Of a DNA stretch of 64,000 nucleotides, positions 14,385-18,321 are shown in pieces. The stretch comes from Desulfotomaculum nigrificans DSM 574 (lineage in GTDB: Bacteria > Bacillota > Desulfotomaculia > Desulfotomaculales > Desulfotomaculaceae). Every line of letters begins with the position of its first letter. The first letter of the stretch is position 1. A program made the translations under genes and the position numbers. The notes below the pieces were generated by a model. The model searched no databases and had not been told where the DNA came from. It saw only the letters and a program-made list of their open reading frames with translations. The stretch covers positions 1,738,257-1,802,256 of the forward strand of contig NZ_KI912183.1 in assembly GCF_000189755.2 (NCBI RefSeq). The letters are read 5' to 3'.

Positions 14385-15440
<1,056 letters not shown>

Positions 15441-15486: not shown

Positions 15487-16464
15487 TCATCTAAACCGGG
15501 CTAAAATTTTTCGCCACCCGGATACTTGATCTAAGCGGCGGGACCTTCGCTTGGCACTGTAAATAGCCAGGCCTATAGCCGAGGCATAAGCGGGGCCGGT
15601 CCATTCTTCCCTGGGTACCCCGACTCTTGCTGTTGAACCCAATTTAACCTGCATGGCCAATGCATTGCCGGTAAATTCAAGGAGTCCGGTTAGTAAAGCT
15701 CCCCCACCGGTAATAATTAATCCGCCGGGTAATGATGCCGACCGGTCAAATCGAGATAATTCCTGTTGAGCCAATTCTAAGATTTCTTGTACCCGTGATT
15801 GAATAATCTCTACTGCTGTGACTCCAGGGACTTTTTTAATGCCTTGTCCATTTACACCGGGTACTTGCAAAATTTTGTTTTGCTCCGGGTATTGCAAACC
15901 CAATGATTGTTTAACACGTTCGGCTTCCCCTATGGTGGTTCTTAAGCATACGGCCAAGTCAGTGGTAATATGCTCACTGCCCACAGGTAGGTAATGTGAC
16001 CAAACCAACTGCCCCCGGTCAAAGACAGCCAGTCCGGTAGTTGTTCCTCCCATGTCCATTAACACAGTTCCGAGGTTTTTATCTGTATCGGTTAGCACAG
16101 CCTCGGCGGAAGCTACTACAGAAGGAACCATTTCCACGATGTTCAATCCGGCAAGTCTAACGGAGTTCACCAATTGACCGTCAAAAAATTCTAATGTACC
16201 AGTTAGTGAATTAGCGACCGGGAACGCTACCCAAACAGATTGGATTGTTTCACCTGCCAGGTCTTGGGCCGATCTCACTGCATTATTTATAGACTTGCTG
16301 AGGGCCTCCACATCTGAAACAGTGCCCTTACGAACCCCTACTGTTGGGCATTCCCCAATGCCTTTAATCATAGGATAGCCGTTGGGTCCAATCTCGGCAA
16401 TCACAGCCACAACCTTGGTTGTGCCAATGTCGAGCCCGGCAACAACGACTTGTCTCCTGGCCAA
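15487..16464 (-). CDS. ftsA: FtsA-like division actin lacking the 1C subdomain
   Basis: About 325 residues, some 90-100 shorter than usual FtsA. Phosphate-1 (AGLDIGTTKVVAVIAE), phosphate-2 (LMDMGGTTTGLAVF), the EEAERVK-like helix (TTIGEAERVKQSLG) and the adenosine motif (GGLIITGGGALLTGL) are all present. The protein passes from SVWVAFPVANSLTGT directly to the segment before phosphate-2 (LNIVEMVPSVVASAEAVL), so about 80-90 residues that form subdomain 1C (SHS2) are missing with no frameshift. The end, LDQVSGWRKILARFR, looks like the usual amphipathic membrane-targeting helix. Start TTG 16464 lies 8 bases after AGGAGG; GTG 16473 overlaps it. Its position before ftsZ supports the FtsA assignment. 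Confidence 0.88.
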   Translation of the reverse strand: MARRQVVVAGLDIGTTKVVAVIAEIGPNGYPMIKGIGECPTVGVRKGTVSDVEALSKSINNAVRSAQDLAGETIQSVWVAFPVANSLTGTLEFFDGQLVNSVRLAGLNIVEMVPSVVASAEAVLTDTDKNLGTVLMDMGGTTTGLAVFDRGQLVWSHYLPVGSEHITTDLAVCLRTTIGEAERVKQSLGLQYPEQNKILQVPGVNGQGIKKVPGVTAVEIIQSRVQEILELAQQELSRFDRSASLPGGLIITGGGALLTGLLEFTGNALAMQVKLGSTARVGVPREEWTGPAYASAIGLAIYSAKRRSRRLDQVSGWRKILARFR

Positions 16465-16554
16465 GCCAGGCACCTCCTAAGTGCTAACGTTTTACTTAAA
16501 ATGTAAAATTCAACAAAGAATAAAAATTCCCTTTTGCGAAAACACGAAAAAACT

Positions 16555-16896
16555 TTATTTTTTTAGTAAATGACGGCGAATTATGGCAAGATTTTGGAAT
16601 AAACGCACGCCAAAGGCCACCACTGCAGCGGTGCTCAAGGGAACACCCAATTTATTACCTAAATAAGCCAGACCGGCCGCTAAAAGAGCATTACTAAAAA
16701 ACCCGGTAATGAAAATTTGATTATCATAATGATCTTCCATAGCAGCCCTGATGCCGCCAAAAACCGAATCTAAGGCCGCCAGCACCGCTAACCCCAGGTA
16801 CTGACCCAAGGTCTGCGGCAAAATCATAGGTGCCTTGAGCCCGGCTGCTACACCCAGAGCCAACCCGGCCAGTGCTAATATAATACTTGCCCACAT
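16555..16896 (-). CDS. sbp: Small basic protein Sbp (DUF1290)
   Basis: 113 residues with three to four membrane helices and the DUF1290 blocks YLGLAVLAALDSVFGGIRA and NALLAAGLAYLGNKLGVPL. In B. subtilis sbp stands in the same place, between the ylxW/ylxX-type genes and ftsA. The function is unknown. The start codon is two bases after the upstream DUF881 gene stop, so the two are co-translated. Confidence 0.9.
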   Translation of the reverse strand: MWASIILALAGLALGVAAGLKAPMILPQTLGQYLGLAVLAALDSVFGGIRAAMEDHYDNQIFITGFFSNALLAAGLAYLGNKLGVPLSTAAVVAFGVRLFQNLAIIRRHLLKK

Positions 16897-16898
16897 GG

Positions 16899-17603
16899 CT
16901 ATCTTGCCTCCTTATGCGGCTTGGCGTATTCCAAATTTATACTCCGGGAATATGCCGGCACTATAATCTTATCCTTTTTAACCACAGTTACTGCTATTCC
17001 CCACTCTTGCATGGTGTCCACCAGTCCACCTTGAATTAACAGGCTGCTTTCCAATTGGCCAGCCGGGCCAATGGCTGAGACCACATAGGGGGGTGATAGG
17101 CGGGTCAAATTAACATCAATAAAGGCCCCGGCCAGCCTAATCTCACTGGTGGAAATTATTCGCTGCCCGTTAATGGACAGGGCCTCGGCGCCAGCAGCTC
17201 TTAATTCATTGACCACCCGCAGTAAATCTTCATCCCGCACGGTAAAAAGATTATCTCCTGCGCTATCTCCTTTTTTTATGGGTGCAATGGTAACCTCTAC
17301 TCCCGGTCCTTGCATGCTGGTTAAGCCGGCCGCCTGACGGACCTTCACCAGCTCGTCTTGTACGGCCTGGGAAGCCTCCGGACTACCCTTTTCAGCTTTA
17401 GATAGCTTGGCCTCCAAGTCGCTGGCTTCGGTGGCCAGGGTATCATTTTCTTTCTCTATCTGTCTGAGTTCAGTGGTTAAAAGTTGTACCCGGTCAAATG
17501 GCACTCCCGAATCCACCCGCCCCGCAGAGCGAAATTGAAAGGCCACCATCAAACCTAATACCACAGACACCACAGCAATAGACAAATACAAAGTCTTATT
17601 CAT
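16899..17603 (-). CDS. DUF881 family protein (YlxW/YlxX type), second copy
   Basis: About 234 residues: one N-terminal membrane helix (residues 5-22), a coiled-coil (about 40-75, LLTTELRQIEKENDTLATEA) and the DUF881 domain (QGPGVEVTIAPI, then LLRVVNELRAAGAEALSING, then AIGPAGQLESSLLIQGG). It is predicted to lie mostly outside the cell as a cell-surface division-associated protein of unknown role. ATG 17603 is preferred, with AGGGCG upstream; the frame overlaps the end of the first DUF881 gene. It is a tandem paralogue of that gene. Confidence 0.9.
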   Translation of the reverse strand: MNKTLYLSIAVVSVVLGLMVAFQFRSAGRVDSGVPFDRVQLLTTELRQIEKENDTLATEASDLEAKLSKAEKGSPEASQAVQDELVKVRQAAGLTSMQGPGVEVTIAPIKKGDSAGDNLFTVRDEDLLRVVNELRAAGAEALSINGQRIISTSEIRLAGAFIDVNLTRLSPPYVVSAIGPAGQLESSLLIQGGLVDTMQEWGIAVTVVKKDKIIVPAYSRSINLEYAKPHKEAR

Positions 17604-18321
17604 TATTATCACGCCCTAAATCCTCTTCTACCGGCTTAGCATACTCAAAGGTAATCGCCCCGGTATAACCGGGCACCTCCAGGTTGTTTTGCTTACGCAC
17701 CTGTACCTGAATACCCCAAATCTTAAGTTGTTCAACTACGCCACCCTTCATAAACAGTGAGTTTTCTAAAGTCTGGGGGTTACCAATGGCCGTAATGGTA
17801 AAAGGGGCCGGCAGGCGTTTATTTTTATTGGTCAGAATAGTGGGTCCGATACAACGTATTTCACTGGTAGCAATTAACCTCTGGCCGTTTAAGGCAATGG
17901 CCTCTGCCCCGGCTGCCTTTAGCTCATTAAGCACCCGCAGGACATCTTCGTCATGCAGCACATATAAATTGGGATCCTGGCCCGGCGCCAGGGTTATATT
18001 ACTATCATTTAAAGTAACCTCTACACCCGGTCCGGTCACAGCTTGAATACCTGCGATGATCCGGTTGGTATCCAACTCCTCACTGAAATTCCGGGATTGA
18101 ACGGTGGCCTTTTTATCCAATTTTTCTCGTAAGGCCTGAACTTTTTGCTGCAGATCGTTTCGCTGCTGCTTCTTGTCATTTATTTCATTGGTTAAAGCCT
18201 GCACTCTGGCTATCTGGGGGGTTTCACTTATCTCTTTGGAAGATCGGTATTGAATGGCCAACATTAACCCCAATACCATGGCCACCAAGGCAATTCCCCA
18301 CTGGTATCCTTTTACCTTCAC
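17596..18321 (-). CDS. DUF881 family protein (YlxW/YlxX type), first copy
   Basis: 241 residues with the same plan as its neighbour: a membrane helix at residues 9-24, a coiled-coil around 40-75 (LTNEINDKKQQRNDLQQKVQ) and a DUF881 domain (TGPGVEVTLND, LRVLNELKAAGAEAIALNGQ, AIGNPQTLENSLFMKGG). GTG 18321 follows GGAGG and overlaps the ftsQ stop by four bases. It matches the ylxW-ylxX pair in the Bacillus dcw cluster. Confidence 0.9.
   Translation of the reverse strand: MKVKGYQWGIALVAMVLGLMLAIQYRSSKEISETPQIARVQALTNEINDKKQQRNDLQQKVQALREKLDKKATVQSRNFSEELDTNRIIAGIQAVTGPGVEVTLNDSNITLAPGQDPNLYVLHDEDVLRVLNELKAAGAEAIALNGQRLIATSEIRCIGPTILTNKNKRLPAPFTITAIGNPQTLENSLFMKGGVVEQLKIWGIQVQVRKQNNLEVPGYTGAITFEYAKPVEEDLGRDNNE

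Follow-up and report, generated by a model that had tools for sequence, protein, structure and literature searches.

The ftsA locus

We analysed a 64,000-nucleotide stretch of the Desulfotomaculum nigrificans DSM 574 genome (the window), in which ftsA lies on the reverse strand at 15487–16464. The gene is preceded by one of the small basic protein type (sbp; 16555–16896, reverse strand), a position kept in all 30 loci examined, and is followed by ftsZ with its conserved tail (14385–15440, reverse strand), assigned by family match and locus comparison. The order sbp–ftsA–ftsZ is common to the genus and its relatives in the locus comparison, and the FtsZ tail is unchanged within the genus. A complete dcw cluster surrounds ftsA in the window, with rsmH/mraW, a DivIC/FtsL-type gene, a PASTA penicillin-binding protein, mraY, murD, an FtsW-family gene, murG, a murC-type gene, murB, an EPSP-synthase-family gene at the murA position and ftsQ/divIB. 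Two neighbouring paralogous genes between ftsQ and sbp (16899–18321) presumably encode DUF881-like membrane proteins. An earlier note, made from the letters of this DNA, had described ftsA as being in its normal place before ftsZ, and the conserved gene order and complete cluster agree with it.

The open reading frame spans 15487–16473 on the reverse strand and counts 328 codons from its first GTG. This in-frame GTG sits inside the Shine–Dalgarno segment AGGAGGTG (16462–16478), a motif kept across the genus, and both points make the TTG at 16464 the likelier start. Hence the true start is probably the TTG, 9 nt beyond the GTG, giving a 325-residue protein with the same coordinates as in the earlier note. 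The AGGAGG itself (16473–16478, reverse strand) is genus-conserved and lies 8 nt ahead of the TTG. The start-region motif AGGAGGTGCCTG(G/T)CTTG is likewise conserved in the genus, with GGGAGG replacing AGGAGG in two species. Automatic callers could take the GTG within the Shine–Dalgarno as the start of ftsA.

The window protein scores 215.2 bits (E 1.5e-63) against TIGR01174, whose curated cut-off of 175.85 bits we used as the criterion for an FtsA equivalog, and matches PF14450 (FtsA) at 2e-32, in agreement with the original assignment of the frame as FtsA. The other PF14450 matches in the genome are two MreB proteins, one PilM and a 624-residue FtsA-like actin (L003; 1121458–1123329 of the genome, outside the window). 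The last is a distant protein that reaches 89.6 bits against the FtsA model, below the cut-off. The earlier statement that no second FtsA is present in the window holds for the whole genome. As judged by these matches, the window gene is the true and only ftsA of the organism.

FtsA of the genus lacks a recognizable 1C subdomain

The 1C (SHS2) subdomain is unique to FtsA and PilM-type actins. Descriptions of 1C present it as specific to FtsA among actins and as the site where double filaments form and FtsN binds. The alignment of the window protein to E. coli-type FtsA structures breaks at one place only, with residues 9–84 aligned to 8–83 and residues 100–307 to 170–387, and the genus profile splits similarly. 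About 15 residues of the window protein correspond to E. coli residues ~84–169. The 1C interval is 15–16 residues long in the genus versus 86–89 residues in 31 FtsA proteins of the class (families f3, f4, f5, f6, f8, and f15), a net shortening of ~70–72 residues. The earlier note had reported that 1C is absent and that 80–90 residues are gone; the absence is upheld by the split alignment and the models, and the size is to be corrected to the net value.

In place of 1C/SHS2 there is a 16-residue linker (residues 85–100; 16174–16221, reverse strand), delimited by the interval lengths and the invariance count. None of its 16 positions is invariant in the genus, versus 87 of the 328 positions over the whole protein (P = 0.006 for zero in 16), and therefore no trace of a constrained 1C is left there. 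We found no match to PF02491 (SHS2_FTSA) in the organism's own genome, which is one contig and 99.95% complete, or in any of the eight sampled genomes of the genus. A class-specific 1C model gave nothing credible in these eight genomes (best E 0.63). This model was built from class members and picks up the 1C of every full-length FtsA on which it was tried, from families f3, f4, f6, f8, and f15 (13 genomes, some of them outside the model). A single-sequence AlphaFold2 model had a pLDDT of 36 and a pTM of 0.27, too low for reading a fold. Split alignment, Pfam, class model and interval lengths all returned no 1C in the window protein. On this sequence evidence the protein is a variant of FtsA without 1C and not a standard member, and it is filed with FtsA on orthology.

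Retained ATP site, contact positions and presumed FtsZ-binding helix

The rest of the FtsA fold can be followed on both sides of the linker. Structure alignment places the first part of subdomain 1A at residues 4–84 (16222–16464) and the remainder of 1A with the start of 2A at residues 101–200 (15874–16173), both on the reverse strand. The phosphate-1 loop GLDIGTTK (16414–16437), the phosphate-2 loop MDMGGTTT (16036–16059) and the adenosine motif GGLIITGGGALL (15691–15726), all on the reverse strand, were located by sequence alignment. Phosphate-1, D140, G142, and G143 of phosphate-2, and the GGG of the adenosine motif are conserved, in keeping with the earlier claim that the ATP-binding motifs are present; only the TTD of phosphate-2 is relaxed, being TTG, TSS or VTG in the genus instead of the usual TTD. 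Because of this relaxed loop, ATP hydrolysis may be reduced in the FtsA of the genus.

The longitudinal-contact positions E199, S252 and 286 of E. coli FtsA correspond in the structure alignment to D129, G182 and K214, respectively. The E. coli lateral-interface and FtsN-suppressor positions (91, 123, 124, 139, 143, and 155) all fall within the missing part. The 2B helix presumed to bind the FtsZ tail (15757–15813, reverse strand) carries R227 and E230, which are invariant in all 53 FtsA proteins compared and occupy the positions of E. coli R300 and E303, which we take to be FtsZ-binding residues. The chain ends in the helix GWRKILARFR (15490–15519, reverse strand), presumed to be a short membrane anchor, and the pattern GWRxVLxRF is conserved in the genus. 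This short helix has a moment of 0.62–0.65 in seven of the eight species, a value that 6–27% of shuffles match and that is not significant singly; in the remaining species (G046) it is weakly amphipathic (0.22).

A single loss in the genus

The same intact, collinear FtsA frame of 327–330 residues is present in all eight sampled species of the genus, the seven other proteins being 49–61% identical to the window protein. The earlier note had stated that no frameshift explains the gap and had proposed a search of related genomes for the same deletion; the frame is intact throughout, and the deletion was found in every one of the sampled species. When the tree is computed from an alignment stripped of the 1C columns, the genus FtsA proteins form one clade (100/100 support) within the FtsA of the class, and families branch as units. 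A single loss of 1C on the genus stem therefore suffices. Pairwise dN/dS among the genus FtsA proteins is 0.14–0.30. We consider the evolutionary part of our account, that is, distribution, single origin, selection and motif retention, to be well supported.

FtsA above the cut-off occurs in 142 of 249 genomes taken from across the phylum. Among the FtsA frames listed, those shorter than 390 residues belong to genus members only, with the exception of G260, whose frames reach contig ends. When the genus profile was run against 398 genomes of the phylum, end-to-end matches were confined to genus members (at least 540 bits), and the best match outside the genus, at 213 bits, begins past the junction. 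Hence no collinear FtsA without 1C was found in the other genera of this 398-genome sample, and its uniqueness is meant within the sampled phylum. A literature search found no published report of an FtsA naturally without 1C.

Erosion of FtsA in the class

In family f14 the 1C is shortened to 52–81 residues and escapes both Pfam and the class 1C model, and family f11 has a borderline 1C of 83 residues without a Pfam match (L058, G059). Degenerate short-1C FtsA genes occur at L029 (G074, which misses ~35 residues), at L030 (G078) and at the other f14 loci. FtsA above the curated cut-off is absent from 25 of 85 class genomes, where the best matches to the FtsA model are the large FtsA-like actin and MreB- or PilM-sized proteins. 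These genomes (G001–G005, G025, G033, G035–G040, G057, G058, G060–G066, and G080–G082) are scattered over at least seven families, and SepF is present in all of them. Overall, SepF is found in 84 of the 85 class genomes. Given the eroded 1C subdomains, the absences of FtsA and the near-universal SepF, the loss of 1C belongs to a broader loosening of FtsA in lineages that retain SepF. The ratio of the evolutionary rate of FtsA to that of FtsZ is ~11 in the genus (11.4) and 5–9 in the other families; the genus value is only slightly above the 9.1 of f8, whose FtsA is full-length.

All eight genus genomes carry two copies of SepF, those of D. nigrificans lying at 1723300–1723515 and 1181409–1181624 of the genome, outside the window. 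Two copies are also found throughout family f6, where FtsA is full-length, and we rejected SepF duplication as a specific partner of 1C loss on this ground. FtsX was likewise rejected as a correlate, being present in 83 of the 85 class genomes.

Alternative explanations

A decaying relic that is heading for disappearance, its whole task taken over by SepF, is an unlikely though serious candidate. The 25 class genomes without FtsA above the curated cut-off, the eroded 1C of f11 and f14 (52–83 residues) and the fast FtsA rate of the genus are what such decay would produce. Yet the frame is open in 8/8 species at identities down to 48%, the dN/dS values are those given above, and 87 of 328 positions are invariant, with the ATP, FtsZ-helix and tail motifs retained; moreover, the rate ratio is near that of f8 with its full-length FtsA. 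An artefact of assembly or a frameshift is scarcely credible, since the identical form occurs in eight independently assembled species, which rules out the assembly deletion that the earlier note had named as a refutation.

It is also quite improbable that the function of 1C comes in trans from another polypeptide, or from the 624-residue actin in co-assembly with the short FtsA. This large protein has an actin core, an insert at the place of 1C and C-terminal ThiS/TGS-like repeats, no function was assigned to it by the libraries searched, and it occurs in all eight genus genomes (53 of the 85 class genomes). It is, however, also present in 45 of the 77 other class genomes, with a full-length FtsA or none, and therefore does not track the loss of 1C; it scores below the FtsA cut-off, and no free 1C domain was found by Pfam in the own genome and the eight genus genomes or by the class 1C model in the genus. 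We rejected it as a substitute for 1C on account of this independent distribution. A take-over of the ftsA locus by another actin-like protein is very improbable. Single-stretch alignments to MreB (PF06723, 47–282; 4czf, 39–263) and to EutJ (3h1q) do cross the junction without an insert, but the FtsA match is at E 1.5e-63 versus ~1e-12, the protein branches among class FtsA in a family-wise vertical pattern, and the FtsZ-helix residues are invariant. The hhalign comparison of the genus profile with the organism's own MreB is aligned from residue 95 onward only (24% identity), and alone is therefore no proof of collinearity across the junction.

Discussion

The genus FtsA resembles the FtsA of E. 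coli, V. maritimus, S. aureus, and T. maritima in its 1A/2A/2B core, ATP motifs, presumed FtsZ-binding 2B helix and adjacency to ftsZ, and putatively in a C-terminal membrane helix. It differs from these standard proteins in being without 1C/SHS2 (PF02491) and shorter by the net value given above, and neither the lateral interface for double filaments nor a pocket of the FtsN type appears to be left. A laboratory 1C deletion of E. coli FtsA is reportedly non-functional; the subdomain removed in such deletions is the same, artificially there and as a fixed, genus-conserved form here. AlfA, a plasmid-segregation actin, is without subdomain IIB, and is likewise a bacterial actin minus one subdomain, although the subdomain and the function are other ones. 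The alignment to EutJ (PDB 3h1q) is continuous without a 1C insert, but EutJ is distant (E 3e-6) and no division protein. In MreB the 1A strand aligns through to the next helix without an insert, but MreB has 1B and another function.

We consider it probable, and the best explanation of the data, that the protein is a working, stripped-down tether of FtsZ to the membrane, that 1C was lost in the ancestor of the genus and that SepF most likely covers recruitment. An in-frame removal of 1C in the common ancestor would have put the short linker in its place and left an actin built of the three subdomains 1A, 2A and 2B plus the C-terminal helix, serving as an ATP-binding tether. The conserved FtsZ tail would bind the 2B helix, and single protofilaments would probably still be made through 2A–2B contacts. 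Antiparallel double filaments mediated by 1C would not be possible, and the 1A–1C pocket, the FtsN site in E. coli, would be absent. From the loss of the lateral positions and the retention of the longitudinal positions, FtsZ-helix residues and FtsZ tail, we infer a tether that would bind FtsZ and could still make single protofilaments, but no double filaments of the 1C type. An FtsN would not generally be expected in such bacteria.

The expectation in the earlier note that this FtsA would polymerise or recruit differently fits published structures. In the antiparallel double filaments of FtsA, 1C contributes nearly every lateral contact; it also forms one wall of the FtsN pocket, and the longitudinal contacts lie between 2A and 2B (PMC7613929). 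The late double-stranded form of FtsA in E. coli is thought to activate FtsWI (PMC11323482). With the 1C interface and the FtsN pocket gone, another factor, most likely SepF, would therefore have to link the Z-ring with the late division proteins. In a minimised B. subtilis a Z-ring can be sustained by SepF alone (PMC11790237), and FtsA depletion in B. subtilis is rescued by SepF (PMC8178401). Since SepF can thus replace much of FtsA there, losing the recruiting surface may be tolerable. FtsZ binding, polymer form and the role of SepF in the genus are presented here as expectations.

A consideration against the tether is that 1C is said to be essential in E. coli for recruiting late proteins; the 1C-less FtsA might therefore do much less here. 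The relaxed phosphate-2 loop, the short C-terminal helix with its weak amphipathicity in one species, and the second SepF of f6 beside a full-length FtsA also count against it. Returning to the working tether, we give about even odds to a broader proposal, namely that this is a naturally minimal division actin, devoid of both 1B and 1C, a pure tether of FtsZ in which the making of single protofilaments is set apart from double filaments and late-protein recruitment. It would then be a stage in a class series from intact through eroded to lost 1C and finally to no FtsA, driven by redundancy with SepF.

FtsA kept under selection without 1C in one genus shows that 1C is separable from the remaining FtsA, and the genus may be regarded as a natural counterpart of the 1C deletion experiment. 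If the broader proposal is true, 1C would be dispensable for the core role of FtsA outside FtsN-using bacteria. The 1C-less protein would be a ready reagent for the roles of FtsA besides late-protein recruitment in bacteria without FtsN, and the class, with FtsA whose 1C is intact, eroded or missing and with genomes that have no FtsA, would offer a graded series for comparing the division of labour between SepF and FtsA at the Z-ring.
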